NCBI GenBank assembly: GCA_016200845.1
Contig: JACQDW010000120.1
Coordinates: forward strand, 1-42,909
Reading direction: 5' to 3'
DNA length: 42,909 nt
Source of the DNA: Burkholderiales bacterium
GTDB taxonomy: Bacteria > Pseudomonadota > Gammaproteobacteria > Burkholderiales > Burkholderiaceae_D
Under the pieces are notes generated by a model. That model did not search any database and was not told the origin of the DNA. It saw only the letters and a program-made list of their open reading frames with translations. A program made the position numbers and the translations under genes. The first letter of the stretch is position 1, and each line of letters begins with the position of its first letter. Below are positions 1 to 21,505 of this stretch, one piece after another.

Positions 1-822
1 ATCGATCGCCTCCAGCGCATCAAGTGCCCCCGTTTTAATACCAACATCCATAGTGTTTGGTACTTCGCACTCAAGCGGGTTAATGCGAATAAGACGTGCG
101 CCGTGATATTGGATCATGCGGTGACTAAAATGACGAACCGATGGAATAGCAGTCCCAGCGCCAAGCTCAATGACAATAGGCCTTTGGATACGATCAAACA
201 AGCTTGGTTGCCGACGTGACTGTTGCCCAGTCCGTTCATCTATCCATTCCCAATCAGAGAACATCAAAATATTTGGTCGAGCAATTGAATCGCAATACAG
301 ACATCTAGGTACCTCATTGACAAGCTCGCATCGAGCTTCATCCACAATTGGATAGAATCCGTTGACATCCCAGATCTGAGTGGCGCATTTATCCAAGCAC
401 TGCAAATGGTGGATAGAGCCATGACACTCTACGATATTGGCAGGATCAAATCCTGCTTTTTGGAACTGTCCATCGACATTGCTTGTAAACACACTACAAG
501 GGATTCCCATTTGCTCCGACCATCGTTTCAATATCGCATATCCACGATGCGGCGCGGTATTTCGGTAGAGTGCGAGTCTATGACCATAAAACCCCCACGC
601 CCGTTGCGGGAATGTGCGAAACGAGTTTGGGGAAGCGATACGGGAAAACTCCAAACCGGCCTCTCGTAGCGCAGGGTACGCCTTCCAGAATCCGTCGGAA
701 CCACGAAAGTCTGGCAAGCCCGAATCCACTCCCATGCCCGCACCCGCGGCGATCACCAAGCAATCTGTTTGGTCAATCAATTGTGCCGCTCTATTAATTT
801 GATTTTGCAGCTCTTCATTCAT
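1..822 (-). CDS. SIR2-family (sirtuin) protein, 3' end outside the window
   Basis: This is an uninterrupted frame of 274 codons that runs off the left edge with no stop, so it is partial at its C-terminus. The start ATG at 822 is preceded by GGAGGA. Sirtuin signatures are in order: a nucleotide-binding GAGMGVDSGLPDFRG block at about residues 26-40, a TSNVDGQFQKAGF block, the putative catalytic histidine in VECHGSIHH, and two cysteine pairs (QCLDKC and RCLYC) that would bind structural zinc. A C-terminal IELGAGTAIPSVR block sits where classical sirtuins have GTSLxVxP. Family knowledge: NAD-dependent deacylases, or NAD-consuming enzymes. It is a paralogue of the sirtuin at 18400-19221, which suggests only a few residues are missing. 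The TSN in place of the usual TQN and the altered C-terminal motif mark a variant subfamily, so the substrate is unknown. It is divergent from nothing visible; rlhA lies downstream of its start region on the same strand. Confidence 0.9.
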   Translation of the reverse strand, partial: MNEELQNQINRAAQLIDQTDCLVIAAGAGMGVDSGLPDFRGSDGFWKAYPALREAGLEFSRIASPNSFRTFPQRAWGFYGHRLALYRNTAPHRGYAILKRWSEQMGIPCSVFTSNVDGQFQKAGFDPANIVECHGSIHHLQCLDKCATQIWDVNGFYPIVDEARCELVNEVPRCLYCDSIARPNILMFSDWEWIDERTGQQSRRQPSLFDRIQRPIVIELGAGTAIPSVRHFSHRMIQYHGARLIRINPLECEVPNTMDVGIKTGALDALEAID

Positions 823-908
823 TGTATCCTCCCCAAATACGCTTGAAAACTACTCGCAAGAACGTGAAAAACATTTTCTTTAGCTTGAAGTATGAGGATA
901 CCTCCACT

Positions 909-929
909 TTGCGACATCTCGTGTCGCAA
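909..929. promoter_or_regulatory. Perfect 8-bp inverted repeat upstream of the sirtuin gene
   Basis: TTGCGACA (909-916) and TGTCGCAA (922-929) form a perfect inverted repeat around a 5-nt spacer, 87 bp upstream of the sirtuin ATG. It lies in the 140-bp gap between rlhA and the sirtuin gene. There is no following T tract, so it looks more like an operator or a short hairpin than a terminator. Related TGCGAC/GTCGCA palindromes occur upstream of the second sirtuin operon, near 15977 and 16088. The regulatory role is inferred. Confidence 0.4.
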
Positions 930-962
930 TCGTGTTCTGAATATACCTAGAGGCTCTATCCC

Positions 963-2924
963 TTACGGCCGCATCTTATGAAACACCAAAGGACTCTCCA
1001 CCGTGGTCGGTGGTGGTGATTTGAGGATGTGGGCTTTCATGCTGCCCATGACGTGCATTTCGCATGGTTTGCAATCAAAACGTAAATTGAATTTCTCGTC
1101 GCCTGATACCAAGGTCATGGGCTCTGCTTTGACCTGGCCTTGTACGCCAGTGACGCCTTTGGCTTGCTTGGGGCAGAGGTTGAAGGCGAAGCGCAGGCAG
1201 TGTTTGGTGATCATCAAGGGCACTTCGCCTGGCTCTTCGTGCGCTTCATAGGCGGCGGCGATCAGTTGTACGCCGTGGCGGTGATAGAAGTGACGTGCCT
1301 TTTCGTTATACACATTGGCCAGATACGAGAGACTGGTTTCTGGATAGGGCACCAATGGGGCTTGTTCCGGTGTGCGTAAGGGGCGTTGCCACTGGCGCAG
1401 ACGCTGTTCTTCGTGTGCAGCCACCGCATCGCGGCGCAAGGCGTTGATGACGGACGATGGGACAAACCAGGCGCGTGGCAATTGCACTTCCACCTGCTCA
1501 CAATAGAACATGGTGTTGCCCAATTTAGCCAAGCTCTCGCGCAGGTTGGCGAAGGCTTTTTCGGCTTGTTGGGCTGGTTCAAACTGTAGTGCGACTTCGG
1601 TCACGCTCTCGATGCCATCGGCGTCGGACAGAGCTAATTGCAAACCGCGCTCGGTTTCAGACAAACGCAGCCACAGCGCAATTTTTCTGTCGGATGATTT
1701 TTTAGTCAGCGCCATTTCCCATTGCTGGTCACGGTTTCTGTGTACCGACATACCGACTTTTAAACTGGCAAACTGCGCCATCTTTTCATTCGGATGCACG
1801 CGCCAGATGGTGCCGTTTTCGTTGACCGATTTTTTCTCGACTGTGTTCGCCTGCACGCCCACTACTTCGCGCTTGTGCATATAGTTCAAGCCATCGCCGT
1901 TGGCCATATCCTCATTGGTTTCGAGTTCAAACCAATCTGGCCCAAGACGTGTTACATAACCGACGTGCAAACCGACAAACTTGGGCGAGTCAAATGCGCC
2001 GATATCGTCAAGGCGTCCATTGGCAAAATAGGTGGTATGCCCGCGATGGAAGGTCTTATCGACATTGGGTGTGAAAGCAACTTGCGTGAGGCCGCTGGAA
2101 GCGCGATAAAACTCGGGGCGGCGCTCTAAAATTTCATCTAACAACAAACGATAATGCGCCGTGATGTTTTTCACATAGCTCATATCTTTGTAGCGGCCTT
2201 CGATTTTGAGCGACTGTATGCCCGCATCCAAGAGAGATTCCAGATTCGCGCTCTGGTCATTGTCTTTCATCGACAACAAATGCTTGTCGTAGGCGACCAC
2301 ACGTCCCTGATTATCGCTCAAGGTATACGGCAATCGGCAAGCCTGAGAACAATCACCCCGATTGGCGCTGCGGCCATCTTTTGCGTGCGAGATATAACAT
2401 TGACCGGAAAACGCGACGCACAAAGCGCCGTGCACAAAGTATTCCAACGGTGTAGAAGTCTGCGCTTTAATCGCTTTGATTTGTTCAAGTGTGAGTTCGC
2501 GTGCTAACACTAATTGCGAGAAACCCGAAGCGCCTAAAAAGTGCGCTTTGGCAGGCGTGCGGATATCGCACTGCGTACTGGCATGAATTTGAATCGGCGG
2601 AATATCAAGTTCCATCACGCCCATATCTTGCACGATCAGGGCATCGACACCGGCATCATAGAATTGATGGATTAGCTTGCGCGCTGGCTCTAACTCGGTG
2701 TCGTGCAGAATCGTATTGAGCGTGACAAACACCCGCGCATGAAAGCGATGCGCATAGTCCACCAACTTGGCAATCTCGCTGATCTCATTGCTGGCATTAT
2801 GTCGCGCCCCAAACGAAGGGCCGCCTATATACACCGCATCCGCCCCATGCAAAATCGCCTCGCGCGCTATCTCAGTCGTCTTAGCGGGCGCAAGCAGTTC
2901 AATTTCATTAAGGCGAAGAGTCAT
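963..2924 (-). CDS. rlhA: 23S rRNA 5-hydroxycytidine C2501 synthase, peptidase U32 family
   Basis: The 653-residue product has the U32-family start (ELLAPAKTTEIAREAILHGADAVYIGG) and the family cysteine region (GQCYISHAKDGRSANRGDCSQACRLPY, about residues 170-200). A long C-terminal extension matches the DUF3656-containing RlhA/YdcP type rather than the shorter YegQ/TrhP type. The C-terminal part carries further cysteines (KHCLRFAFNLCPKQ and FDCKPCEMHVMG). Known role of the family: prephenate-dependent, iron-dependent hydroxylation of C2501 in 23S rRNA. The length equals that of Escherichia coli YdcP. The ATG at 2924 directly precedes the conserved N-terminus, although no strong Shine-Dalgarno sequence is seen. 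It stands alone, with a terminator-type hairpin of the upstream gene about 50 bp before its start. Older annotations would call it a U32 collagenase-like protease. Confidence 0.9.
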   Translation of the reverse strand: MTLRLNEIELLAPAKTTEIAREAILHGADAVYIGGPSFGARHNASNEISEIAKLVDYAHRFHARVFVTLNTILHDTELEPARKLIHQFYDAGVDALIVQDMGVMELDIPPIQIHASTQCDIRTPAKAHFLGASGFSQLVLARELTLEQIKAIKAQTSTPLEYFVHGALCVAFSGQCYISHAKDGRSANRGDCSQACRLPYTLSDNQGRVVAYDKHLLSMKDNDQSANLESLLDAGIQSLKIEGRYKDMSYVKNITAHYRLLLDEILERRPEFYRASSGLTQVAFTPNVDKTFHRGHTTYFANGRLDDIGAFDSPKFVGLHVGYVTRLGPDWFELETNEDMANGDGLNYMHKREVVGVQANTVEKKSVNENGTIWRVHPNEKMAQFASLKVGMSVHRNRDQQWEMALTKKSSDRKIALWLRLSETERGLQLALSDADGIESVTEVALQFEPAQQAEKAFANLRESLAKLGNTMFYCEQVEVQLPRAWFVPSSVINALRRDAVAAHEEQRLRQWQRPLRTPEQAPLVPYPETSLSYLANVYNEKARHFYHRHGVQLIAAAYEAHEEPGEVPLMITKHCLRFAFNLCPKQAKGVTGVQGQVKAEPMTLVSGDEKFNLRFDCKPCEMHVMGSMKAHILKSPPPTTVESPLVFHKMRP

Positions 2925-9510: not shown

Positions 9511-11790
9511 ATGAACCAACGCCACCTCAGCACAGGTGCGGCATCGCTCTTTGCCGCCCTGCAGATATTCCCTGCCCACGCCCAAGATCTTGACACGCCA
9601 ATCCCAGAACGCGTGGTGATACAGGGCACCCAAAGCAGCACCCTACCCACCATCATCCCGACCACCATAGAAGGCATCAACGCCGAAACCGTAGCACGCA
9701 CCATCAATGCCTTTGACGCCGAAGATGCCTTGAAATATTTTCCCAGCCTCTTAGTGCGCAAACGTTTTGTTGGCGACTTTAATCATGCGGTGCTGGCGAC
9801 CCGCGCTTCCGGCACTGGCAATAGCGCCCGTTCGCTAGTGTTTGCAGATGGCATTTTGCTGTCCAATTTGCTCGGCAATGGTGCCAGTTTCACCCCACGT
9901 TGGGGCTTGGTCTCGCCAGAAGAAATCGCTCGTGTCGATGTGCTGTATGGCCCATTTTCTGCGGCTTATTCTGGTAACTCAGTCGGCGCGGTGGTGGACT
10001 ATGTCACCCGCATGCCAGATAAATTTCAGGCTCAGGTCAAACTCTCCGCCGTCACTGAACAATTCAAAGAAGCCGCTACCGATCACGCTTACACTGGCAA
10101 GCAAGCCTCCCTTAGCCTCGGCGACAAACAAGGACCATTTTCATGGTGGCTGCATTTCAATCACTTGGATAGCGAAGGACATCCGATTGCCTTCGTGAAT
10201 AAATTAAACTCTTCTGGCGTCACCAGCAACGCCGGAACCTTTGTCACCGGAGCCGTCCCCGGCATCAACCCACAGGGCAAAGACTGGTGGTTATTGGGTG
10301 CCAGTGGACAAACCCATACCCAGCAAGATCACGCCAAGATCAAATTCGCTTATGACATTAACCCAACCCTGCGCGCCAGCTATACCTATGCAAGCTGGCG
10401 TAACACCGCCATTAGCGATGCAGATAGCTATTTGCGCGATCTCACTGGTCGCCCTGTTTATAGCGGAGACATCAATATCGCTGGAAAAAAATACACCCTC
10501 GCGCCAACCGACATCACAGAAAGCCTTACGCAATCCGAACATCGCACGCACGGCTTTTACATCAAAAGCAATCGCAGAGGCATGTTCGACTGGGCTTTGT
10601 CCGCCAGTAGTGACGACTACACGAGCGATCTCATCCGCATGCCCAACACGGCCTTGCCCACCGCAAGATCGGGTGGCGCTGGTCGTATCGCTGACGGCAA
10701 GGGAACAGGGTGGCAGACCTTGGGAATCAAAGGAATCTGGCGTCCACAGAGCCAACACATCACCGAGTTTGGCATCCAGACCGAACGCTATCATTTACGT
10801 ACCCAAGTCTTCGCCATAGGAGACTGGATCACGGGCGCGCCAGCACAAAGTATCTCGGCCTTCCGTGGTGACACGCAATTAAACAGCCTGTATGCCCAAG
10901 ATGCCTGGCGCATCAGCCCAACATGGCGCGCCATCCTCGGTGCGCGTTTAGAGCAATGGCAGGCCAATCATGGTGCCATCGCCAACGCCACCACTACACT
11001 CGCGTTTGCCAATCGAGAGCAAGTCAAGCTCTCGCCCAAAGCAGCGTTGTCTTATCAATGGAGCGACGAGCTCGCCCTCAAAGCATCAATCGGAAAAGCC
11101 TGGCGCATGCCCACCGTCTCAGAGTTATACCAAGGCAGCATCGCCAGCAACAACATCATCAACAACGACCCGCTACTTAAACCAGAACATTCCTGGACCG
11201 GCGAGCTCAGCGCTGAATGGTCGCTGGCACAAGGCAAAGGTCTCATGCGCAGCACCTACTTCGCAGAAGACAGCCGCGACGCTCTCTATGCACAGACCAA
11301 TGCGCAAGTCAGCCCTGTCGTCACTACCATACAAAACATAGGGCAGATACGCACTCAGGGATTTGAGATCGCTTATCAAGCAAATGATGTTGTCGTCACT
11401 GGCTTAGACCTCAACGCCAGCCTCACCTATGCCCACTCCCTCATCGTGCGCAATGACCGCTTCCCCGCCAGCGTCGGCAAATGGCAGCCACGCGTCCCCA
11501 GATGGCGCGCCAACTTCCTCGCCAGCTATCGCCACAACCAACAACTCTCCACCACGCTGGGCGCACGCTACAGCGGTCGCCAATACGGCACGCTCGACAA
11601 CAGCGACCACAACGAATCTAGCTACACCAGCGTCTCGCGCTTCTTCGTTGCCGACTTGCGCCTGCGCTATCAAGTCGACTCGCACTGGAGCGCAGCCTTA
11701 GGCATAGACAATCTCAACAACAGAAAATATTGGGCTTTCCATCCTTACGCCCAGCGTAGTATCGTTGCAGAGTTAACTTGGTCCCACTAA
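9511..11790 (+). CDS. TonB-dependent outer-membrane receptor, probably for copper
   Basis: The 759-residue product has a signal peptide ending at PAHA-QDL and a TonB-box-like stretch (ERVVIQGT) right after it. A plug domain covers about residues 45-190 (IEGINAETVARTINAFDAEDALKYFPSL, then VDVLYGPFSAAYSGNSVGAVVDYVT). A 22-strand-type barrel follows, ending in the classical aromatic/His C-terminus (AELTWSH). The substrate is inferred only from context: it lies between a DUF2946 gene and a PCu(A)C copper-chaperone gene, an arrangement linked to copper uptake. Siderophore use cannot be excluded. The stop is 23 bp before the chaperone gene, so co-transcription is very likely. Base composition is visibly more GC-rich than the island to the right. 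Confidence 0.9.
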   Translation: MNQRHLSTGAASLFAALQIFPAHAQDLDTPIPERVVIQGTQSSTLPTIIPTTIEGINAETVARTINAFDAEDALKYFPSLLVRKRFVGDFNHAVLATRASGTGNSARSLVFADGILLSNLLGNGASFTPRWGLVSPEEIARVDVLYGPFSAAYSGNSVGAVVDYVTRMPDKFQAQVKLSAVTEQFKEAATDHAYTGKQASLSLGDKQGPFSWWLHFNHLDSEGHPIAFVNKLNSSGVTSNAGTFVTGAVPGINPQGKDWWLLGASGQTHTQQDHAKIKFAYDINPTLRASYTYASWRNTAISDADSYLRDLTGRPVYSGDINIAGKKYTLAPTDITESLTQSEHRTHGFYIKSNRRGMFDWALSASSDDYTSDLIRMPNTALPTARSGGAGRIADGKGTGWQTLGIKGIWRPQSQHITEFGIQTERYHLRTQVFAIGDWITGAPAQSISAFRGDTQLNSLYAQDAWRISPTWRAILGARLEQWQANHGAIANATTTLAFANREQVKLSPKAALSYQWSDELALKASIGKAWRMPTVSELYQGSIASNNIINNDPLLKPEHSWTGELSAEWSLAQGKGLMRSTYFAEDSRDALYAQTNAQVSPVVTTIQNIGQIRTQGFEIAYQANDVVVTGLDLNASLTYAHSLIVRNDRFPASVGKWQPRVPRWRANFLASYRHNQQLSTTLGARYSGRQYGTLDNSDHNESSYTSVSRFFVADLRLRYQVDSHWSAALGIDNLNNRKYWAFHPYAQRSIVAELTWSH

Positions 11791-11813
11791 TCACCAAATA
11801 AAAGGAACACACC

Positions 11814-12260
11814 ATGAACCAACACATCACCGCCAGCCTGCTCCTCGCCTTATCCAGCATCTGCAGCGCCACCGTCAACGCCCAAGTGACCGTCAAAGAA
11901 GCCTGGATACGCGCCACCGTCGCCCCACAAAAAGTCACAGGCGCATTCTTGCAGATCACATCCAAGCAAGACGCCAAACTCATCGCCGTTTCCAGCAACA
12001 TCGCCGACAACGTAGAAATTCACAGCATGGAAATGGAAGGCGACATGATGAAGATGCGTGAAATCAAAGACCTCCCACTCCCCGCTGGCAAAACCATAGA
12101 ACTCAAACCAGGCGGCATGCACATCATGCTGTTTGGATTGAAAAAAGCAGTGAAAGAAGGTGAAAAAATAAAGCTGAACTTAACCGTCGAAGACAACAAG
12201 AAACAACGCCAGCAAGTGGAAGTGCAGGCGACGGTGAAGGCTATGAATGGGGGGATGTAG
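11814..12260 (+). CDS. PCu(A)C-type periplasmic copper chaperone
   Basis: The 148-residue product has a signal peptide ending near TVNA-QVTV. The copper-binding pattern H-M-x(n)-M-x(n)-H-x-M is visible as EIHSMEMEGDMMKMREI followed by GGMHIMLFGLK. The domain fills the mature protein; the Ig-like strands VTVKEAWIRATVAPQKVTGAFL and IKLNLTVEDN are standard for the family. Known role: delivers Cu(I) to the CuA site of cytochrome oxidase or buffers periplasmic copper. Shine-Dalgarno AAAGGA precedes the ATG. The 3' 250 bp are repeated at 19294-19549, so the present 3' end may have been replaced when the neighbouring island arrived. Confidence 0.95.
   Translation: MNQHITASLLLALSSICSATVNAQVTVKEAWIRATVAPQKVTGAFLQITSKQDAKLIAVSSNIADNVEIHSMEMEGDMMKMREIKDLPLPAGKTIELKPGGMHIMLFGLKKAVKEGEKIKLNLTVEDNKKQRQQVEVQATVKAMNGGM
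12011..12260 (+). repeat. Left copy of the 250-bp PCu(A)C 3'-end duplication
   Basis: From CGTAGAAATT at 12011 to the stop codon, this stretch matches 19294-19549 in the same orientation. Scattered, mostly silent, differences occur, and the right copy carries extra codons near its end. Similarity stops right at the stop codons and at an internal gene position on the 5' side. The two copies bracket the island. About nine bases in ten agree by eye; the exact identity was not computed. Confidence 0.9.
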
Positions 12261-12272
12261 AATTTAGAATGA

Positions 12273-12301
12273 CGCACCTCAAATTCAAAATTTGAGGCGC
12301 G
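12273..12301. terminator. Hairpin just after the copper-chaperone gene
   Basis: CCTCAAATT (12277-12285) and AATTTGAGG (12289-12297) pair perfectly around a 3-nt loop, and the stem extends by CGC/GCG at 12273-12275 and 12299-12301. No T tract follows on either strand. It lies between two convergent genes at the left edge of the island and may be a weak bidirectional terminator. Confidence 0.45.
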
Positions 12302-12316
12302 GTAAAACGTAACAAC

Positions 12317-13072
12317 CTAACTAGACAAAGATCTCCCGAGAACAGTAAAACTAACTAGCATGGCTGGAAACAAATCAACTCTCTCAGGCTTAAAATAAAA
12401 ACCGACTGTTGGAAATTTCTCCATTAATCTAGACTTTCCATTGTCAAGCGATTTTCGACCAGTGAAGGCTTCGTTAAATAACTTTTCAAGCTCTTCACTT
12501 TTAATTGGCTCCTGAGCCAAATCACTTTCTGTTATTACCTGAAGTGGCATACAAATCATCCCAACGACATAATGACTATGCTTTCGATCATCAAGGGATG
12601 AAAATACACTTCTTTGCGTCAATTTCCCTTGACTCTTCACATAGTCTGCAAACATTCGCCTAATTCCCCTCTCACTTGAAAGCACTTCATTAATTTTCCT
12701 AGGGTCTTTTGGCTGTAAGAATTTCTTTGCTTCTAAATAGAAATTAAATTCACTCGCCGCGTCACTGGACGGGATGTGCGCCCACAAATCACATCGCCCA
12801 AATTCAGACTGAGTCGCTTTCTTAATTGGTAGTTCTTCGGCGACGATACTTTGAGGATTTGAACGGATAATTGAAGCAGCCAAGGAACTGACGACTACAC
12901 GCTCGTTTGCAAGCCACGGAACTTCTGGTTTACCAAAAAGCGCCTCCGTTTTGCTCAAATATTGCCTTAAATGGGTTTCCCAATTTCGGCAAATTTTGGT
13001 CAATTGTTCGTAAATAAAATCATACTCTTCAAATCTTTCAACATTCTTTTTTGTGCTAAGTGGTACGTACAT
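12317..13072 (-). CDS. Uncharacterised protein with PD-(D/E)XK nuclease-like motif
   Basis: The 251-residue product starts at ATG 13072 behind AAGGAAG. No family is recognised with certainty. The middle of the protein carries GRCDLWAHIPSS, then FNFYLEAKKF about 20 residues later: a D ... ExK arrangement with hydrophobic strands on both sides, typical of restriction-endonuclease-fold nucleases. An upstream conserved-looking helix (VSSLAASIIRSNP) and EEL could supply the first acidic residue. It is the last gene of a leftward group, 34 bp after the WYL regulator. Its place beside a DUF2779 nuclease and a WYL regulator suggests a defence or DNA-processing role, which is inference. It might equally be a restriction-like protein without activity. 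Confidence 0.6.
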   Translation of the reverse strand: MYVPLSTKKNVERFEEYDFIYEQLTKICRNWETHLRQYLSKTEALFGKPEVPWLANERVVVSSLAASIIRSNPQSIVAEELPIKKATQSEFGRCDLWAHIPSSDAASEFNFYLEAKKFLQPKDPRKINEVLSSERGIRRMFADYVKSQGKLTQRSVFSSLDDRKHSHYVVGMICMPLQVITESDLAQEPIKSEELEKLFNEAFTGRKSLDNGKSRLMEKFPTVGFYFKPERVDLFPAMLVSFTVLGRSLSS

Positions 13073-13106
13073 TGTTCTTCCTTAAACAAGTTTTTAACAA
13101 ATTAAA

Positions 13107-14081
13107 TCAGAGCTCTACACCCACAACGTCCCAAACTTTATCACCAAACCCACGCAACCACCAACGTAAGTGTCCAGTGTCAACTACAGTCGCATTTATC
13201 CTAAAACCCGAATTCAATTCTTCTGCGATCTGATCTTTGGATAGAGCGGATTCCAGCAAATGTTGCCCCGCCTTTTTATCGATCGTAAATGATAGATGGA
13301 CTTTTTTTCCGTGGCCAAAACCAAAACGCCCGTCCGCGTCGTATTCCTTTAGCTTGAAGTTTTTAGGGCGATCAAAACTAAGAGTTGAAGTGCTAACAGA
13401 TGAGATTCTATGAACCGCGAGACTGCGTTCGTTCGTGTACCCTTTAAAACGGCAGACCAAGTACAGGCGTGGTCCTTGCTGCGCTAAGCCCAAGGGCATT
13501 ACATCATGGCGTTTCCTTTCGCCAGCCGCATTTTTGTAGCTCACATCTAACCATCGGTTGAAATACAAAGCGTTGCTAACTGGTTCTAAGATCCCCTGCT
13601 TTATTGGTGGGGGAATCAAAGACTGAGTCTCACTAACGACCCTCACCTTACCAAGCCACTCGCGGGCGCGAGAACTATTGGTATGTGATTTAAACTCTGC
13701 AAGAGGATCTAATTTCGCACGTGCTTGCTCAAAGAATCCTCGCATCGACGTCATCAAATTAGAAGGTAATAAATTTTTTAAGTGCTGCTCCGCAAGTGAG
13801 AGCAACAAAGCATCCTGCTCATTTAACATAGGAATAGAAAAACTTGGAGTTTGCGTGCCTCGACGATAGCTGTATGGTTTACTGTCGCTATTACAATCGA
13901 CGTCAAAATACTGGCAAAGCATTTTTAACTGTTTCTGAATATTGCGAATGTCTCGCTTAATTCCGGCATTTTCTAATTGCACGCATAACTCCTGCGCTGA
14001 AACAGACCTGCTGGTGGGTATTCGTCGCAATAACTCAATCGCCAATCTCACTGTTTCTGATGTCTTATTTTCCTTCTCCAT
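13107..14081 (-). CDS. WYL-domain transcriptional regulator
   Basis: The N-terminal winged-helix part (about residues 1-85) is followed by a helical linker and a WYL-type domain (RWLDVSYKNAAGERKRHDVMPLGL, then PRLYLVCRFKGYTNERSLAVHRISSV). A C-terminal WCX-like extension ends in HLRWWLRGFGDKVWDVVGVEL. WYL proteins of this architecture (BrxR, CapW and relatives) are repressors often linked to phage-defence operons; the ligand is unknown. ATG 14081 is chosen because AAAGGA sits six bases upstream; ATG 14096 is in frame but lacks a ribosome site. The gene begins about 17 bp after the true stop of the DUF2779 gene and lies 34 bp before the PD-(D/E)XK-like gene, so it probably controls its own operon. 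Confidence 0.85.
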   Translation of the reverse strand: MEKENKTSETVRLAIELLRRIPTSRSVSAQELCVQLENAGIKRDIRNIQKQLKMLCQYFDVDCNSDSKPYSYRRGTQTPSFSIPMLNEQDALLLSLAEQHLKNLLPSNLMTSMRGFFEQARAKLDPLAEFKSHTNSSRAREWLGKVRVVSETQSLIPPPIKQGILEPVSNALYFNRWLDVSYKNAAGERKRHDVMPLGLAQQGPRLYLVCRFKGYTNERSLAVHRISSVSTSTLSFDRPKNFKLKEYDADGRFGFGHGKKVHLSFTIDKKAGQHLLESALSKDQIAEELNSGFRINATVVDTGHLRWWLRGFGDKVWDVVGVEL

Positions 14082-14098
14082 TGCTTCCTTTTTCATTG

Positions 14099-15675
14099 TT
14101 AATACCCACTAAAAAAGCGCCAAATAACAAACATAGCGTAAGTATCGAGTTCACAATAGCGTCGCAGAACATGATCAATCTCAGCCTTTCTGGAGCAAGT
14201 AACAGCCTTTGCAATGGCTTCAATATAGACCTGCATCGCTACCCCACCGTTTTGAACCTCACTCAAGTCTTGATAAGACAATTCAGGTGCAACGGCAGGC
14301 AAGACCTTTTTGATGCTCCAACTCCCCTGTTGGCTTGGGTGATAATAGTATTTTTAGTGATCGCAAGAAGATCAACCAACCTGTCTTTAATCGCTAATAA
14401 TTGATCGCTATATGCGGGTAAAAATTCGGCTAGGTCTCGGATGCACATTTTTTCAAAACTGGCGTTATAAGCGAATATGTTACCGCGCTTACCGCAAGAA
14501 GCAATGAGACTTTCAGCCAATCGCTTCGCGGGATCTTTTCCCGTCAAATCCAAAAACTCCATGTGTGTGACTCCACCAATGCGACCCAATTTGTGCAAAC
14601 TGTATTGGAATGGAATTTGCCGATATGGTCTACGGCCTTTCCAAATTGGCACAGCAAAATTGACTGTCTCAAAGTCAAGAAAGAAGATCGGTTTTTTGTG
14701 TTGTGCCAACTCGCTCGCAGCACTCATTCGGTCGAAGTAAACTTGTTTGGATATGGTATGTATTTTCACCCGAAGCTGCACTGGATTAAGTAACTTGTCG
14801 GGCACGCGCCTAAGATCAGTTATGCCTTGATTTAAACACTCTTTAAGTGCCGTTGTGTTAATCGATGGCAGCCATTGCACAGGAAATTGAGCCTGTTGTT
14901 CTTGGCTCTTGCAATAAGCTGCAAATCCACAATCATTCGGCATACTACAATGCTTACCGGTTTGAATCGCTGGTTCTGATCGCTTCTTGACGACTTGATG
15001 TGCACCAACAATCCACTTAACACCAACAATCCACTTAACACCAACAATCCACTTAACACCAACAATCCACTTAACACCAACAATCCACTTAACAACTTCA
15101 GCTTCTTGACGAAACACATGTTCGGTTACATCGACCACTGAAAGTAACCCCTCATAATGGCTCTTACCATCGTAAGAAAAATCAGAGTTGACATATGCGA
15201 GCGACACCTCTTCAATTTGAGCTCCTGCGGCTCTAGCTATGTAAAACTGGATAGCGACATCGGCCAAATAGTGCTCTTTAATTTCACTTGACGATTTCAC
15301 CTCTATCATATTCCAAACTCTTTGACCGTTACGTCTTGCAGGTAACATGACATCGATGAATGAGCGCGCACCGTTTACCTGAAACCCAGCTTCAAAAATT
15401 GGATGCCTTGACGAAAGAAATTCTTTTGTCTGAATCACGACCTCATCAATGCCTTGAATCATCGGCTGAAATACAATTCCTTTTCCTTTAGGATCATACA
15501 AACGACGCGCGACTAATCCAACCTGATTACCGATGTCAAAACCCATTTGCATTGATGCGGAAACGTCGTTCATATCTTGACGATGAACCTCTAACCATAA
15601 ACGCTTATGGCACTGGAGATAAGCCATTATTTTCGACTGCGCAAACGTAAGACGAAGAACGCGGTTCCATATCAC
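14099..15675 (-). pseudogene. DUF2779 Fe-S nuclease/exonuclease with a one-base frameshift
   Basis: The first frame runs from GTG 15675 to a stop at 14263. The expected C-terminus continues in another frame to 14099 (GSWSIKKVLPAVAPELSYQDL, then RRYCELDTYAM). The switch maps to an A5 run, seen as T5 at 14351-14355 on the plus strand; adding one A would give 525 residues in a single frame. Domains: a Cas4/RecB-like nuclease with Cys22, Asp108, the Glu125/Lys127 EVK motif and cysteines 243, 249 and 255 for a likely iron-sulfur cluster; then a DnaQ-like exonuclease starting at FLDFET (about 334). The final exonuclease acidic motif (ELDTYAM) lies beyond the frameshift. Residues 195-224 are five copies of VKWIVG. 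The cause may be a real mutation or a homopolymer sequencing error. It heads the operon with the WYL and PD-(D/E)XK-like genes. Confidence 0.85.
15003..15092. repeat. Five perfect 18-bp tandem repeats inside the DUF2779 gene
   Basis: The unit CACCAACAATCCACTTAA occurs five times without a mismatch. Because 18 is a multiple of three, each copy adds VKWIVG to the protein in frame. The segment sits just before the cysteine cluster, in the helix that joins the nuclease core to the iron-sulfur region. Identical units point to recent expansion by strand slippage. Confidence 0.97.
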
Positions 15676-16216
15676 TAAACAGGCGTGGATACATCATGAT
15701 AAGCGCCGATAATTTATTTTCACACGTCATAATTTAAATACCCTCTCCCTTAACATTGAGAGAAAAACAGCTTCATTGCTCCCTGACTTGCCAAAAGCTT
15801 CTCACCGTTTCTGGGACAAAAGTCGTTGTCGTTGGGATGACAAAAAAACGAATGAAATAAATGACTTTTGCCTCACTACGAAATGTCTGAACTGGCGCTC
15901 TAAAAATAAGCGGCATGGCAAATCCTTTCGTCAGTTCACTTAAATACCAAAATTTTAAGTGCTACGTACGACGACTTGCGTCGCATGTGAACTCATCACA
16001 CTCGAATGAAAAAACTTCTATCTAGAATTGCTGAATATGCGGTCTTTGTCACCGAAGCAAAAAAGACGATTAGATCGAGATTTACTGTTTGCGACGCAAA
16101 TCGTCGCACCTTAATGCAACAATCAAATGTTCTCCGACGCACTAATCGAGGGCTACATTTCGGTTCATTTGTGACCGAAACAAAACTTTAACTACTCACC
16201 AAATTGAGGCGACAAC
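15676..16216. other. 540-bp divergent intergenic region inside the island
   Basis: This region separates the leftward DUF2779 operon from the rightward SIR2 operon and must hold both promoters. It is AT-rich with no convincing gene. A 61-codon frame at 16006-16191 has no ribosome site. Two short palindromes with TGCGAC/GTCGCA cores occur at 15977-15985 and 16088-16100. A loosely repeated TTTGT(C/G)ACCGAA motif occurs near 16048 and 16168. Confidence 0.6.
16088..16100. promoter_or_regulatory. Perfect 13-bp palindrome upstream of the SIR2 operon
   Basis: TTTGCGACGCAAA is a perfect palindrome (six-base arms around a single base), 117 bp before the first gene of the SIR2 operon. A shorter relative, TGCGTCGCA, lies at 15977-15985, and TCGTCGCA follows immediately at 16101. 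The spacing and symmetry suit a dimeric repressor; the WYL protein encoded nearby is a candidate. The assignment is inferred. Confidence 0.4.
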
Positions 16217-17317
16217 ATGAGCCGTTTTGCATTTTTCTTGCTGTATTTGCTGTTTATGATACCGACTTATGTTCTTCCTTTCATAGGTTCAAATTCAACC
16301 GTCGTCCATGCAATTTTGCAAGACACAGAAAGCAGTTTGCCAATCTACACGTGGATTCATGCGGGTTCATTGTTCATATTGGTCATACTCGGTACGATTC
16401 GAGGAAGTAGCAATGCCAAAAGTGGGTTGTTTGCCTTTCCACTCTGTGCTGCAATTTTTGATTTTGTGCCAGTACTAAGTAGTATCCCTTTCATTCCAAC
16501 TATTTTGCATGTAATAGCGCTCATCTTGGGATTACAAGAACAGAAAGACTTGAATGAGAAACACTCAATCAACGCCGACAAAAAAAAATGTCCTCATTGT
16601 GCCGAGTACGTTAAATGTGAAGCCGTTCTATGTCGGTATTGCGGTAAAGATTTGGTGTTGCCACGCAAAACTCATTTAGCCAGATCTATAACGAAACCCG
16701 AAGTAACGATAAATCCGACAGCACTGAGCAATAGCAAAAAAAATATCTCTACAAACTCGAAAGAATTTTCGACTCTTAACGAACTGTTAGTACACCCAAC
16801 AGACGAACAAACTTCGCACACATGGCTTTATTGGATTTGCGTTCTCGTAATCGCAGGCGGAAGCATGGGCTACTACTATTACTCAAGCAATACCGTTCGT
16901 TGGAAAAAACCGGATTTAAACAAGCTAAGTCGCGATTCGGAAAAAATTATGTCAACACGTGCAGGGGACTTGATTGTTGTAGGAGAATTTCAAAACAAAA
17001 ATATCACCTTCAGAGGAAAAAAGCTATTTAAGGAAGACTTAAACGATTATTCGTTCGTGCAGAAATTCGTATATACCGAACAGGATGTCGTTTTGGTGAC
17101 AACCAGTTCTGGTGCAAATTGTCAATTCTATTTTTTTCTAACGATCACGAGTACGGTCTTATCGACACCAACTTTTGGGACGTGTGATGACAGCCCTATC
17201 ATTTCTCAACAAGGCGAAAAAATAACTCTGCTTATGAATAACAAAGCTGGAAAAAAGGTGCGCTTTGCATTTAACAAAGGCGTAGTCTCCGAAAATGGCA
17301 AGCACCTCGAAAAATAA
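16217..17317 (+). CDS. Membrane protein with cytoplasmic zinc ribbon, unknown function
   Basis: The 366-residue product starts at ATG 16217 behind GAGG. Three hydrophobic segments (about residues 3-24, 47-62 and 70-106) are followed by a zinc ribbon with CPHC at 125-128 and CRYC at 139-142, similar to UPF0547-type ribbons. A lysine/serine-rich linker and a fourth membrane span (about 203-223, WLYWICVLVIAGGSMGYYYY) come next, and then a roughly 140-residue soluble C-terminal part with no recognised motif. It is the first gene of a three-gene operon; the next gene starts three bases after its stop. As a membrane protein tied to a degenerate HD protein and a SIR2 protein, it could be a membrane effector or sensor, but this is speculation. 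Confidence 0.75.
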   Translation: MSRFAFFLLYLLFMIPTYVLPFIGSNSTVVHAILQDTESSLPIYTWIHAGSLFILVILGTIRGSSNAKSGLFAFPLCAAIFDFVPVLSSIPFIPTILHVIALILGLQEQKDLNEKHSINADKKKCPHCAEYVKCEAVLCRYCGKDLVLPRKTHLARSITKPEVTINPTALSNSKKNISTNSKEFSTLNELLVHPTDEQTSHTWLYWICVLVIAGGSMGYYYYSSNTVRWKKPDLNKLSRDSEKIMSTRAGDLIVVGEFQNKNITFRGKKLFKEDLNDYSFVQKFVYTEQDVVLVTTSSGANCQFYFFLTITSTVLSTPTFGTCDDSPIISQQGEKITLLMNNKAGKKVRFAFNKGVVSENGKHLEK

Positions 17318-17320
17318 AGA

Positions 17321-18388
17321 ATGTGCACGATCAACCGTATCTCATTAAGTTCTCAAGAAATTTCATACTTAAGAAAAGTAAACCTAGTCTTAAGTAGAAT
17401 TCAAACAATGCTCTTGCAACAGCTGGTTTGTCTCGAGTTAGACTTGTCCGGGCGAATAGACAACACGAACGAACTGTTCAATTATTTTGATATCGACATC
17501 GAACTCCATTATTACTTGCGTCCAGATGATCAGAACTTTACCGCTAACGCAGAAAATATTCTTGCGAAGCGTTCTGGCACCACAAAATACAAAATGTTTA
17601 GCAACCTGGATTGGAGTGTCGGGTTCGAACACCTATTTGGCTTTACTCAACACTGCTGGCTATTTCACGACTTATATGCGCCAAATTCACACAACTATCC
17701 TGCACTATCGATTCAAGATATGCTGCGTATCGGTGATATTTGGATCAATGTCGTGCCTCAATTCCAATACTTTATCGATGCTCCAATACGAGCCTTTTCA
17801 TTGCGTTATATTTGCCCACTCAACCAACACTACGGATCGACACACTTCACAACATATAGTGGAAAACGCATTCCCACATTTCCTGATACACCGAGGCAAA
17901 ATGATTTCAAAGTCGAAGATATCATTCAAGGACTGAGCAATCAATGCAAATATTTTGGTCAAACAAAACACTTTTATTCAATAGCACAGCATAGTTTGCT
18001 TGTCGCGTCATTACTTCCACAAAAATTACGCCCAGCGGCATTATTATATTCGGCGCCGATTGCTTACATGGGAGAGTTGCCCAACAACCTGAAACCAAAA
18101 ATGCATGCCCATCGCAGATATGAGAATCGATTACGTTCAGCGATTGGACATCGATTCGGTGTGTCACCAACTCTATTCGATTCAGCGCTTCTAAAGGAGG
18201 CCAAATCGCGGGTAGAGGCAACTGAACAGCGTGATGTTCTTCCAAATATCATTGATACAGTCAACAACTTTGAAACAGTAAAGCCGATGCAAAAATTCAT
18301 CACATATCTCTCGCCAGAAGACGCAAGAAAAAGCTTTCACGTTGAGCTAAAAAAGTATCTTCCAAGTGCCTTTAACTACACTAGATGA
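17321..18388 (+). CDS. Protein with N-terminal unknown domain and catalytically degenerate HD domain
   Basis: The 355-residue product is tightly coupled to the preceding gene. The C-terminal half (about residues 178-340) matches the YfbR-like HD phosphohydrolase family found in many phages and bacteria: an SGKRIPTF start, an EDIIQGLSNQCKYFG block, then FYSIAQHS. In that family the next block is ALLHDAxEAY; here it reads LLYSAPIAY (residues 241-249), so the HD pair is YS and the glutamate is Ile. The later KEAD-type aspartate is also missing. His224 is kept. The fold seems intact but the metal site is lost. Residues 1-175 include HCWLFHDLY and IQDMLRIGDIWINV and match no domain I recognise. 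A binding or regulatory role for nucleotides is possible. Confidence 0.72.
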   Translation: MCTINRISLSSQEISYLRKVNLVLSRIQTMLLQQLVCLELDLSGRIDNTNELFNYFDIDIELHYYLRPDDQNFTANAENILAKRSGTTKYKMFSNLDWSVGFEHLFGFTQHCWLFHDLYAPNSHNYPALSIQDMLRIGDIWINVVPQFQYFIDAPIRAFSLRYICPLNQHYGSTHFTTYSGKRIPTFPDTPRQNDFKVEDIIQGLSNQCKYFGQTKHFYSIAQHSLLVASLLPQKLRPAALLYSAPIAYMGELPNNLKPKMHAHRRYENRLRSAIGHRFGVSPTLFDSALLKEAKSRVEATEQRDVLPNIIDTVNNFETVKPMQKFITYLSPEDARKSFHVELKKYLPSAFNYTR

Positions 18389-18399
18389 TTTGAATAGTT

Positions 18400-19221
18400 A
18401 TGGAAAACACAGAAAGATATAAGATCGCCGCCGCTCTTTTAAAAACCGCCGACGGTTTGTTAATTACCGCAGGCGCCGGAATGGGAGTTGACTCCGGCTT
18501 GCCCGACTTTCGAGGTGATGAAGGTTTATGGAACGTCTATCCAGCACTCAAAAATGCGAACCTATCTTTCACAAAAATTGCCAATCCAAGTGCGTTTGTA
18601 TCAATACCAGAGATCGCCTGGGGATTTTACGGACATAGATTGCAGCTCTATCGCGAAGTCACCCCGCATGTGGGCTTTAAAATATTAAGAGAAATGTCGC
18701 AGACAATGCGCAATGGTGCGTTTATTTTCACCAGTAATGTTGACGGGCATTTTCAAAAAGCTGGTTTCGACGAAAAGCATGTTGTGGAGTGTCATGGTTC
18801 AATCCATCATCAGCAGTGTAGCGGCCCATGTAATCTTTTAATACGCTCTGCCGCCAACATAGAAGTCGATATCGATGCAGAGCAGTGTATTTGGAAATCA
18901 GCGTTACCACGATGCAAACACTGCGGTGACGTGATGCGCCCGAATATTTTGATGTTCAACGACTATTCGTGGATTTCTACACGCACCGATCAACAGATAG
19001 AAAGAATGCGCGACTGGATTGCAAGAGTAAATAACTTAGTGGTGATCGAAATTGGTGCTGGTCGCGCAATTCCGACTGTACGCAACCAAAGTGAAAGATT
19101 ACAAAAGCCAGTAATACGTATTAATCCCATAGATTTTTCAGTTCGACATCGCCGCAGTATTGGACTTGACTCAACCGCGTTAATTGGCTTACAGGGGATC
19201 TTCGAGGAATTCTTGAAATAA
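18400..19221 (+). CDS. SIR2-family (sirtuin) protein, island copy
   Basis: The 273-residue product carries GAGMGVDSGLPDFRG (about residues 24-38), TSNVDGHFQKAGF, the putative catalytic histidine in VECHGSIHH, cysteine pairs QCSGPC and RCKHC for zinc, and IEIGAGRAIPTVR near the C-terminus. It shares every unusual motif with the sirtuin at 1-822, so the two are paralogues of one variant subfamily. Family role: NAD-dependent deacylation or NAD cleavage. SIR2 domains recur in bacterial defence systems as NAD-depleting effectors, but stand-alone proteins of this length are more often deacylases. It is third in the operon, 11 bp after the degenerate HD gene. The displaced PCu(A)C fragment follows 72 bp downstream. 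Confidence 0.9.
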   Translation: MENTERYKIAAALLKTADGLLITAGAGMGVDSGLPDFRGDEGLWNVYPALKNANLSFTKIANPSAFVSIPEIAWGFYGHRLQLYREVTPHVGFKILREMSQTMRNGAFIFTSNVDGHFQKAGFDEKHVVECHGSIHHQQCSGPCNLLIRSAANIEVDIDAEQCIWKSALPRCKHCGDVMRPNILMFNDYSWISTRTDQQIERMRDWIARVNNLVVIEIGAGRAIPTVRNQSERLQKPVIRINPIDFSVRHRRSIGLDSTALIGLQGIFEEFLK

Positions 19222-19293
19222 CTGAAGAAAAATTTACTGATTACCACCGTTGGCTACTTTCATTTTGACACGCATCGTATGCTTAACGCGCAG

Positions 19294-19549
19294 CGTAGAA
19301 ATTCACAGCATGGAAATGGAAGGCGACATGATGAAAATGCGAGAAATCAAAGACCTCCCCCTGCCCGCCGGCAAAACCATAGAACTCAAACCAGGCGGCA
19401 TGCACATCATGCTGTTTGGGCTAAAAAAAGCGGTGAAAGAAGGTGAGAAAATAAAACTGAACTTAACCGTCGAAGACAACAACAAAAAGCGCCAGCAAGT
19501 AGAAGTGCAGGCGACGGTGAAGTCTATGAATGGGGGGATGGGGATGTAG
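19294..19549 (+). pseudogene. 5'-truncated PCu(A)C copper-chaperone remnant
   Basis: This is the right copy of the duplicated 3' end. It retains the metal motif (EIHSMEMEGDMMKMREI ... GGMHIMLFGL) and the C-terminus with an added GM, but lacks the signal peptide and the first half of the domain. A short in-frame leader from a TTG at 19250 is open, yet it encodes no export signal, so a functional periplasmic protein is unlikely. It is best read as the original 3' end displaced by the island. Confidence 0.88.
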
Positions 19550-19575
19550 GTGTTGGTGCTATTCCCAAAGATGGA

Positions 19576-19608
19576 GAGAGGTTTTATAGCTAAGCCAAAA
19601 AACCTCTC
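19576..19608. terminator. Hairpin between the chaperone remnant and the RcnB-like gene
   Basis: GAGAGGTTTT (19576-19585) pairs perfectly with AAAACCTCTC (19599-19608) across a 13-nt loop. It sits between convergent stop codons. The T residues are inside the stem rather than after it, so it is only a moderate terminator candidate for either strand. Confidence 0.55.
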
Positions 19609-19617
19609 GTCACTGCA

Positions 19618-20145
19618 TCAACGCAAAATATCCTCAATCGCGTCCACCACCATAGCCGTGCCTATCGCGATGAGTAGGATGTCGTTGGCGACTCTGACAT
19701 AGCGGTGTCCTGCAGGTGCAGTGCCCAGAATAGAGATGACGCTGCGCGGTACGTCAACATAGACGATGTCTCTGGCTAAAGCCTGGCCTTTGCGCCATTT
19801 CTTTGCTTGTCCTGGCGGCATGCAGCCATTGTTCTTTTTTGCTAGCCCCGGTGGACAGCCGTGTTTGCGTACATCTTCTTGGTAATAGGCACGCACTAGG
19901 TTGATGTGTTGCGGGGTGAAATAGACGTCTAAATTGCTTTGTTCACTTTGTCTGCCTGCATCATCAGCGTCGTTTTTGTTGCCGTGTTTGTTGCCATGCT
20001 TATTTCCGTGTTGCTCGGACTTGCCTTGCCCATTTCCCGCCCACGAAGGTTTGTCGGCAAACGCTGCACCACTCCACAATAAGGTGCTGGCGCTCAAAAC
20101 GAGCAATAACTGTTTTGCTTTGATTTGCGTCACGATCTTTTTCAT
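19618..20145 (-). CDS. RcnB/CigR-like periplasmic protein
   Basis: The 175-residue product has a signal peptide ending at AAFA-DKP and AAGGAT six bases before the ATG. A low-complexity HGNKHGNKHGNKN stretch (about residues 45-60) could bind metal. Two GCPPGLAKK/GCMPPGQAKK repeats and a C-terminal RcnB-type block (VPRSVISILGTAPAGHRYVRVANDILLIAIGTAMVVDAI) match proteins annotated as RcnB-family or CigR. RcnB takes part in nickel/cobalt homeostasis in Escherichia coli, and CigR is an anti-virulence membrane protein in Salmonella. The family relationship is clear but the function here is not. It stands alone, 20 bp downstream of the histidine-kinase gene on the same strand. Confidence 0.78.
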   Translation of the reverse strand: MKKIVTQIKAKQLLLVLSASTLLWSGAAFADKPSWAGNGQGKSEQHGNKHGNKHGNKNDADDAGRQSEQSNLDVYFTPQHINLVRAYYQEDVRKHGCPPGLAKKNNGCMPPGQAKKWRKGQALARDIVYVDVPRSVISILGTAPAGHRYVRVANDILLIAIGTAMVVDAIEDILR

Positions 20146-20164: not shown

Positions 20165-21505
20165 TTAAGCCGACAGACTCACTGTAAATTGCGTATTACC
20201 ATCGGCATTCGTCGCTAAGCGATGTGCAAGTCCATGGCGATGTAATACTTCTCTCACAAATAACAAGCCCACGCCTTGACCACCTTTCTTGGTGGTGAAA
20301 AATGGTGTGAACAAATTTTCTTGTGCGATGTGCGCCAAACCGTTTCCAGAATCAATCACCGCTAATTGCCATTGTTGATGCTCGTTTTGCGTCAAACTGA
20401 GGTGCACAAAAGCAGGGCTATCAACGTTGCGTCTGTCCCTAACGGCTTCTATCGCATTTTTGACGACATTCATCATCGCTTGTTCGAACAAATGGCGATC
20501 TAACATTTGTGGTGGGGGAGACGCTCTCTGCGTCCAATCGATGGTGATTCCTTGTTCAGCACAAGTCTGTTTGTACAAGTACACGATATCGTCCATCAAG
20601 GCCGCGACATCGACGGGACGCAAGTCAGGCTCGGGCATTTTGACGACACGGGTGAAGCGCTCAATAAATTCACCCAGATTGACATTGCGTTTTTGCACAG
20701 CGATGATCGCGGTAGAAAAATCTTCGCTATCGTCGGCGCGCAATTGATCGCGATAAAACAGGAGTGATTCCAACACCGAACCGGTTGCCGCCACCGTGTT
20801 ATTCACTTCATGCGCCAACACGCGCACCAACTTTTCGTAGGTCGCTTTCTCTGAGCTGACTAATTCATCAGTGATCTCATCAATCAACAAAAATTCACGC
20901 GCAAAACCGCGATCTATAAACTGTCCGCGTTGCGGCCGAAAACGTCGTCCGGCACTGTCGGCAAACACGGCGCTCTCGCCGCAACTCAAATTTTGCAACG
21001 CCGCGATGAAATCTGGTGAACTTGCAGTCTGCATGAGGCTTGATAAATTTTGGCCCTCTCCATTGACGACGGACAGCATGCGCTTAGCAACGGGGTTCAT
21101 CAAACTGATATTGCCGTCATAATCAAACACGATCACGGCGCTGGGCGTCGCTTCCAGCAAGCGATCTAAAAATCCACGCTGTTCGCCCAGTCGCAAGCGC
21201 TCTTCGTGCATCACTTCTAGCAATTGATTGAATAGACTGATTAAAGAATTGAGCTCGCGATTGCGATGCGGTTTCATCCGCACGGAATAATTCGCCTCTT
21301 CTAACAGTTCATGAAATTGGCGGGCGAATCCCAAAGGTAGCATGGCCTTGCGCAGCAAATAAACGCCAAGACTCCAACTCGTCAGCAACAGCACTTCAAT
21401 GCCCAACATCAGCCACGGCTGTTGCCGCAAAAAACTCAGCACCAGCCCCAACAGCGTAATATGAATCAGCGCTAGATATAGCTGAAGACGGCTTTGCAAA
21501 CTCAC
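20165..21505 (-). CDS. Sensor histidine kinase, NtrY-like, with minimal periplasmic loop
   Basis: The 446-residue product has two membrane spans (about residues 9-27 and 32-51) with only about five residues between them. A HAMP-like or coiled linker, a PAS-type domain (about 113-205, ATPSAVIVFDYDGNISLMNP), a phosphoacceptor helix with His232 (RVLAHEVNN) and an HATPase domain (MNVVKNAIEA, DSGNGL, FFTTKKGGQGVGL) follow. GTG 21505 overlaps the stop of the regulator gene by four bases. The tiny loop means the signal is probably sensed in the membrane, or through the ABC transporter encoded in the same operon, as in Bce-type kinases. It is the last gene of the six-gene operon and the likely partner of the NtrC-family regulator. 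Confidence 0.9.
   Translation of the reverse strand: MSLQSRLQLYLALIHITLLGLVLSFLRQQPWLMLGIEVLLLTSWSLGVYLLRKAMLPLGFARQFHELLEEANYSVRMKPHRNRELNSLISLFNQLLEVMHEERLRLGEQRGFLDRLLEATPSAVIVFDYDGNISLMNPVAKRMLSVVNGEGQNLSSLMQTASSPDFIAALQNLSCGESAVFADSAGRRFRPQRGQFIDRGFAREFLLIDEITDELVSSEKATYEKLVRVLAHEVNNTVAATGSVLESLLFYRDQLRADDSEDFSTAIIAVQKRNVNLGEFIERFTRVVKMPEPDLRPVDVAALMDDIVYLYKQTCAEQGITIDWTQRASPPPQMLDRHLFEQAMMNVVKNAIEAVRDRRNVDSPAFVHLSLTQNEHQQWQLAVIDSGNGLAHIAQENLFTPFFTTKKGGQGVGLLFVREVLHRHGLAHRLATNADGNTQFTVSLSA

Follow-up and report, generated by a model that had tools for sequence, protein, structure and literature searches.

The PCu(A)C locus of the window

The stretch of DNA analyzed here (the window; 42,909 nucleotides, contig JACQDW010000120.1 of the Burkholderiales bacterium assembly GCA_016200845.1) carries a PCu(A)C copper chaperone gene (PCuAC; 11814-12260, forward strand) whose last 250 bases are present as two copies in direct orientation, at 12011-12260 and 19294-19549, which are 93% identical and 7283 bases apart. 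Six genes lie between the copies, and we refer to this region as island 1. A repeat search of the window called the direct repeat at 12008-12257 and 19291-19540 (250 nt, 93% identity), and in a blastn self-comparison of the window it was the sole direct repeat of such size. The homology sets in abruptly within the gene (12011/19294) and terminates at both stop codons (12260/19549). The intact copy matches PF04314 over its full length (E 2.9e-37); the second copy covers PF04314 profile positions 41-106 only and is without the signal peptide and the N-terminal part. The G+C content of the island is 41.9%, compared with 49.0% in the rest of the window, and a Pfam scan of the six island proteins detected no integrase.

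The two PCuAC copies differ at 17 of 250 sites, with 11 silent and 4 replacing codons. By site counting, 13 silent changes fall on 48.7 silent sites and 3 replacement changes on 197.3 sites, which gives a silent divergence (dS) of 0.33 and a replacement divergence (dN) of 0.015. Such values indicate that the tails diverged mostly as functional gene ends in separate lineages and, judged by its sequence, the second copy is no decayed local duplicate. We read 12011-12260 as a putative substitute 3' end with its own stop codon on the attL-like side, joined to a native 5' part of the gene, and 19294-19549 (forward strand), which also ends at its own stop codon, as the putatively displaced native 3' end on the attR-like side. 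An earlier note, made from the sequence alone, had described the 3' 250 bp as present twice in the same orientation, with homology beginning inside the gene and stopping at the stop codons, silent differences between the copies, and six accessory genes in AT-richer DNA with no integrase; all of this was recovered. Its argument that the silent differences speak against a very recent simple duplication also holds, as the dS and dN values suggest that both tails were under selection.

The PCuAC locus was then compared among relatives. None of the six island proteins gave a match at E 1e-6 in 20 PCuAC neighbourhoods from 17 genomes. The gene order HDOD, TonB receptor, PCuAC is kept at 8 loci; all eight have one PCuAC copy and lack the island genes. 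The earlier note had considered that relatives might all carry the six genes in the same place or might have two chaperone genes flanking the region; the genes are found in no syntenic relative (8/8 without), and no other genome among 36 genus genomes shows a closely spaced PCuAC pair. It had also suggested a search for a chaperone gene joined directly to the RcnB-like gene. Such a junction was seen only approximately, in a single relative (G024; genomes, contigs and loci used for comparison carry G, C and L numbers), where the RcnB-like gene is convergent to PCuAC with one gene between; no clean empty PCuAC site was found, and clean sites were found at the prfA island described below. In the window, an RcnB/CigR-like gene (19618-20145, reverse strand; matches below curated cut-offs) lies to the right of the displaced copy in the same convergent order. 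The G024 order argues that the displaced copy's side is the native one.

The first island gene, i1 (12317-13072, reverse strand; 251 amino acids), belongs to no family. A relative with 52% identity lies in a cluster of G227 (L087, G227:C1:3823000-3842000) that we take to be restriction/defence-like from its open reading frame (ORF) labels, and i1 may thus be a defence protein of an uncharacterized type; it has what we take to be a nuclease-like D..ExK pattern. The i1 structure model (mean predicted local distance difference test score 34) was unusable, and three matches to PDB (E 0.14-0.51) were regarded as chance. The next gene, i2 (13107-14096, reverse strand), encodes a WYL-domain regulator (PF13280, E 9e-9; PADLOC WYL, E 4e-16). 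It is followed by i3 (14102-15675, reverse strand), a DUF2779 protein with a Cas4-like N-terminal part (Pfam Cas4 match slightly under the cut-off) and an RNase H-like exonuclease domain. Passages of PMC3985635 place the DUF2779 catalytic domain among presumed 3'-5' exonucleases and report its co-occurrence with a PD-(D/E)XK-like partner domain. The i3 reading is split over two frames by a frameshift in 14323-14347, so that the gene is broken or misassembled. It also contains an 18-bp tandem repeat of about five copies (15003-15112, forward strand) encoding repeated VKWIVG; frameshift and repeat may reflect decay, phase variation or an assembly error.

The remaining three genes run on the forward strand: i4 (16217-17317), membrane-type by eye with a zinc-ribbon match below the curated cut-off; i5 (17321-18388), with an unknown N-terminal domain, which occurs alone in an island of G026, and a 5'-nucleotidase-like domain (phrog_318); and i6 (18400-19221), a SIR2-family protein (PF02146, E 1.5e-22; phrog_2162). 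PADLOC named no complete system on island 1 and returned WYL and Cas-type matches only. A WYL-domain regulator stands beside the defence-like genes, as in WYL-regulated (BrxR-like) defence islands. Viral and plasmid origins were tried and rejected: among viral_contigs five stretches matched the PCuAC pattern with 0 confirmed relatives, and i1 had no match among plasmids.

Islands with displaced gene tails at four other genes

When the family was searched with the WYL gene, another island came to light in the window's own genome (G000; 70.6% complete, 227 contigs); the earlier note's description of the PCuAC locus does not mention it. Contig C34 of this genome encodes a WYL protein, a DUF2779 protein and a tandem AAA ATPase, and also carries the final 148 bases of a U32-type gene (96% identical). 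The intact gene, which we take to be of the U32-peptidase type, lies in the window (963-2924, reverse strand) at the edge of the second island, with the repeated 3' end at 966-1114, and is adjoined by a SIR2-like gene (1-822, reverse strand; 49% identical to i6) that runs off the contig. The second island is thus represented by window positions 1-962 and by G000:C34 (L144 7050-13084). Beyond the displaced U32 tail on C34 come one further gene and then two genes that are presumably DPP-IV-like and KdtA-like. The DPP-IV-like gene follows U32 in four of eight relatives (G281, G010, G017, G227) at a distance of 125 bp to 1.1 kb, and the KdtA-like gene is also present in three; in the other four relatives the DPP-IV-like gene falls outside the fetched U32 stretch. 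The layout would therefore be intact U32 gene, island over the contig gap, displaced U32 tail and native neighbours, with the adjacency of the two contigs being our own supposition.

The third case is found in G030, a genome of the same genus that is 99% complete in about 30 contigs. Behind its prfA gene (release-factor-1-type) lie genes for a WYL protein, an AAA ATPase, a 425-aa protein and ZorA- and ZorB-like proteins; next comes a displaced prfA tail that comprises the final 153-162 bases of the gene (92% identical). Clean empty sites were found in two of 12 relatives (G002 and G008): in these, no more than about 10 bp separate prfA from the sequence that in G030 lies behind the displaced tail. 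At the nine differing sites of the prfA tails, the nearest relative G010 matches the displaced tail at 7 and the intact tail at 2, and G008 does so at 6 and 3. This agreement of the nearest relatives suggests that the displaced tail is likely the native one and that the tail of the working gene was imported, a suggestive result that is not significant alone.

Two further cases come from other genera. In a Polaromonas metagenome-assembled genome (MAG; L311), a 13.1-kb island lies between an intact exodeoxyribonuclease III gene and a displaced tail that is 97% identical and has its own stop codon; the island encodes AAA/M41, DUF2779, WYL, two GmrSD-type and Nmad2 proteins. In a Curvibacter MAG (Curvibacter sp. 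AG1, L279), the order downstream of a glyoxalase/DUF2621 gene is DUF2779-WYL-Nmad island, first displaced tail, 4.4 kb of DNA and second displaced tail. The homology at L279 extends beyond the stop codon and, by eye, through a terminator hairpin. L279 15226-19985 has the form of a tandem array in which a BTAD/AAA regulator gene lies between the two displaced tails. Among the four further genes, empty sites are known at two (prfA and U32); the Polaromonas and Curvibacter sites are outside that comparison.

Changes between intact and displaced tails were pooled over PCuAC, U32, prfA and exodeoxyribonuclease III: 27 are silent and 8 are replacements, compared with 20.7% silent expected by site count. 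The Curvibacter pair (4 silent, 3 replacement) was left out of the pooled count. The excess of silent changes argues that the copies diverged under purifying selection. All five islands carry a WYL regulator and defence-like genes. By name, the defence-like cargo across the islands consists of WYL, DUF2779, SIR2 and 5'-nucleotidase-like proteins, with ZorAB-like proteins in the prfA island and GmrSD in the Polaromonas island.

To compare WYL-side loci with controls, we counted direct repeats that were 80 bp or longer, had an identity of 80% or higher and were separated by more than 1.5 kb. A genome_contigs scan with three WYL proteins supplied the best 80 of 152 loci; the 141 WYL-side loci include 61 family loci, some of which are continuation stretches without a WYL gene, and the controls were 69 loci (1.01 Mb). 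Such repeats were present in 13 of the 141 WYL-side loci and in 0 of 69 controls (Fisher p 0.006, for loci that are not independent). Apart from gene ends, the repeats of these 13 loci include ones like the repetitive extragenic palindromic (REP) type (L261, L267), non-coding-like ones (L137, L141) and two partial LysR-like copies (L287); L310 (coding-like), L236, L198, L201 and L245 were left unclassified. At a 50-bp threshold, two of 29 control loci (L038, L047) had a 56-bp repeat, which in one case lay at the 3' end of an ORF; L177 had a 68-bp repeat, and the L198 repeat was marked as a 5' end. In a set of 40 stretches, five of them same-genus contigs, no 3'-end repeat was marked at the 50- or 80-bp threshold.

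A scan for repeats of C-terminal versus N-terminal gene ends (C-end/N-end scan), which included 20 control loci and missed L311, gave C-end rows for L138, L279, L287, L236 and L290 (two) and N-end rows for L245, L279, L290 (two) and L141. The only N-end row that brackets a WYL gene by coordinates is that of L279, where the scan picked up the locus's tail repeat a second time in a different frame. Two other repeat arrangements were observed in the survey. In G026 (L137 5497-5577 / 14976-15057), a WYL/DUF2779 island lies within an 82-bp non-coding repeat with an inverted copy nearby, and the bracket contains an ORF (13463-14938) that we take to be transposase-like. L245 (16255-16653 / 20271-20668) has a 399-bp direct repeat (97.7% identity) that lies beside, not around, the WYL gene and covers an ORF start.

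The two islands of the window's genome also share a candidate operator. The palindrome TGCGACN7GTCGCA occurs at 16090-16108 (forward strand), before the i4-i5-i6 run, and at 910-928 (forward strand), before the SIR2-like gene of the second island. These two occurrences, one per island, compare with 0.02 expected in the window, and another is found at L144 12283-12301. In the survey set, 32 of the 141 WYL-side loci had the motif, at 42 sites in total, against 0 of 69 control loci; allowing a looser spacing (3-10) added a match in one control locus, L041. The WYL protein probably represses the cargo genes through these proposed operators.

Mode of island entry

We propose that 12261-19290 is an integrated, integrase-less, WYL-controlled island of the defence type. 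The incoming DNA, most simply a circle, would have borne a related species' version of the chaperone gene's 3' end. A single crossover within this 3' end would then have fused the native 5' part to the foreign tail, leaving the gene complete, and would have moved the native tail to the opposite side of the island. One crossover between the gene and a circle consisting of foreign tail and island gives the observed anatomy whatever the enzyme; the circle, the donor species and the enzyme are what we infer. The earlier note had left a choice between an element that supplies a 3' end and recombination with a related locus, and the comparison favors both, in a form in which the two alternatives merge into a single event.

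We consider it about an even chance (probability roughly 0.5) that entry was site-specific and similar to that of a cis-mobilizable element (CIME), with an enzyme acting in trans or since lost. Two features incline us to site-specific recombination: the shortness of the displaced tails and the fact that every resolved case is a 3' end. Uniform breakpoints would give longer tails than the six observed (95-250 bp; simulated p 0.006 for six and 0.016 for five; post hoc). When the larger island ORFs, including those of the sequenced part of island 2, were scanned with Pfam, no recombinase domain appeared, and neither integrase nor transfer genes, as expected for a CIME. G000 has two strong tyrosine-recombinase matches, read as XerC/D, plus two weak ones, and no serine recombinase match was found in G000 or G030. 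A second prfA 3' end is present only in G030 among 43 genus genomes (41 with a match); of 392 family genomes, 387 of which gave a match, two have one, namely G030 and G250, the latter not inspected; a second U32 3' end is present in G000 only, of 43 genus genomes (30 with a match). Two words were rejected as end motifs: AGAAATTCA, which stands at the start of the displaced tail in both islands of G000 and is absent from prfA and the Polaromonas gene, and TACTGATT, the only other common word of at least 8 bases, at two right ends.

Several observations weigh against the proposed account. No common motif was found at the ends of four islands, and no partner integrase element was found at prfA or U32 in the genomes compared. 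The two displaced tails of L279 begin about 65 bases apart in the gene, where one fixed core predicts otherwise. For the direction of the prfA exchange, the farther relative G002 matches the intact tail at 5 of 9 sites and the displaced tail at 4, and over all 162 columns each prfA tail is 9 changes from G008. The second island crosses a contig gap, and the two contig ends share no overlap. The genes around PCuAC in G024 that we take to be of the SCO1, PepSY and YcnI types are missing from the window locus (11790-11814, 19549-19618), so the PCuAC site is no clean one-step insertion. A resolved gene-3'-end repeat was present in just three of 141 WYL-side loci (L138, L279, L311), the two islands of the window's genome apart. 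The link to WYL is partly built in, since WYL was the search handle in four of the five cases (the second island and the prfA, Polaromonas and Curvibacter islands).

Some of these observations are what would be expected if no site-specific enzyme took part, a competing account that we hold to be possible and give a substantial minority share of our belief. In it, transforming DNA of a related species, anchored by the gene 3' end with the island behind it, recombines by a RecA-dependent or homology-facilitated illegitimate route: one crossover takes place in the gene, and the other end is joined illegitimately or the fragment is circularized, so that the native tail is displaced. The lack of a recombinase domain in the ORFs scanned and of a common end motif, the differing breakpoints within one Curvibacter gene and the divergence of the two prfA tails, which is about that of sister species, are all in its favor. 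Integrase-free hotspots often recombine at flanking core genes according to sections of PMC5635113, and displacement of the old gene in this way has been proposed for effector loci in the part of PMC5361080 that we cite. However, random junctions predict displaced segments of all lengths, whole genes included, and all six fall in the range of 95-250 bp. The resolved WYL-bracketing repeats of the C-end/N-end scan (L138, L279) are 3' tails with no 5' end among them, L287 being left without assignment, and a double crossover of the hotspot style would yield no displaced tail.

An old tandem duplication of the chaperone gene, followed by insertion of unrelated genes that removed the 5' half of the second copy, would account for the truncated gene copy. 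We regard it as very improbable, since PCuAC is single at the 8 syntenic loci, both tails were apparently selected while they diverged, and a like footprint occurs at four other genes, two of which have empty sites in relatives. A chimeric metagenome assembly of two strains, conceivable from the incompleteness and fragmentation of G000, is the least probable of all, as the same anatomy is present in the nearly complete G030 and in two further assemblies and both flanks belong to one locus in relatives (PCuAC, with the right side from one relative, and U32).

In the most far-reaching reading, the islands would form a recognizable class of integrase-less mobile defence islands at the 3' ends of unrelated housekeeping genes. 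The borrowed tail would serve as landing site and exit handle: the tails would recombine to release a circle, which would re-enter the same gene in another species and keep that gene whole. We put this generalization forward tentatively and consider it rather doubtful at present. Were the class real, defence genes would pass between species although their islands encode no dedicated integrase, and such islands could be recognized by displaced gene tails. The entry scar itself, a foreign tail on the intact gene plus a displaced native tail, is legible: it indicates the native side and is searchable by machine.

Comparison with known systems

A search of open-licence literature turned up no account of WYL-type defence islands that are flanked by a foreign and a native gene tail. 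The closest scar is that of e14 in E. coli icd, where, in the portion of PMC11148124 cited here, 165 bp are duplicated with 12 exchanges and two conservative replacements and the frame is kept. Like the islands, e14 enters near a gene 3' end and supplies a substitute tail, leaving an equal scar. It differs in being a prophage with a putative integrase gene, intE, whereas the scanned island ORFs show no recombinase domain and the islands have a WYL regulator together with defence-type genes. CIMEs resemble the islands in having no integration or transfer genes, and their tandem accretion is known (PMC5704250, in part). As possible differences from CIMEs, a related integrase element was not found at the same genes (prfA and U32) in the genomes compared, and two breakpoints occur in one Curvibacter gene.

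A Helicobacter insertion with a long target duplication likewise has defence-type cargo, linked to restriction-modification genes, between long direct repeats of its target (sections of PMC1643837). In the islands, divergence between the two copies is 3-8% and mostly silent, so that one of them appears foreign and not a mere duplicate of the target. The dS and dN values at island 1 and, weakly, the closeness of the displaced prfA copy to the two nearest relatives are at odds with a target duplicate.

Many variable chromosomal islands are without a recognizable mobile element (PMC5635113, in part), and the islands resemble integrase-free hotspots and core defence hotspots, in which variable genes (in the latter, defence genes) lie by core genes with no such element (passages of PMC5635113 and PMC10250203). 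Two crossovers in the flanking core genes would not produce a displaced tail, whereas the islands have a duplicated flank. Finally, BrxR-family WYL regulators are encoded next to mosaic defence genes (PMC9122601, in part), and i2 is likened to them by its WYL domain only. The words 'integrase', 'direct repeat' and 'DUF2779' do not occur in the main text of PMC9122601 as far as it was available; compared with that system, the integration footprint is the new part.

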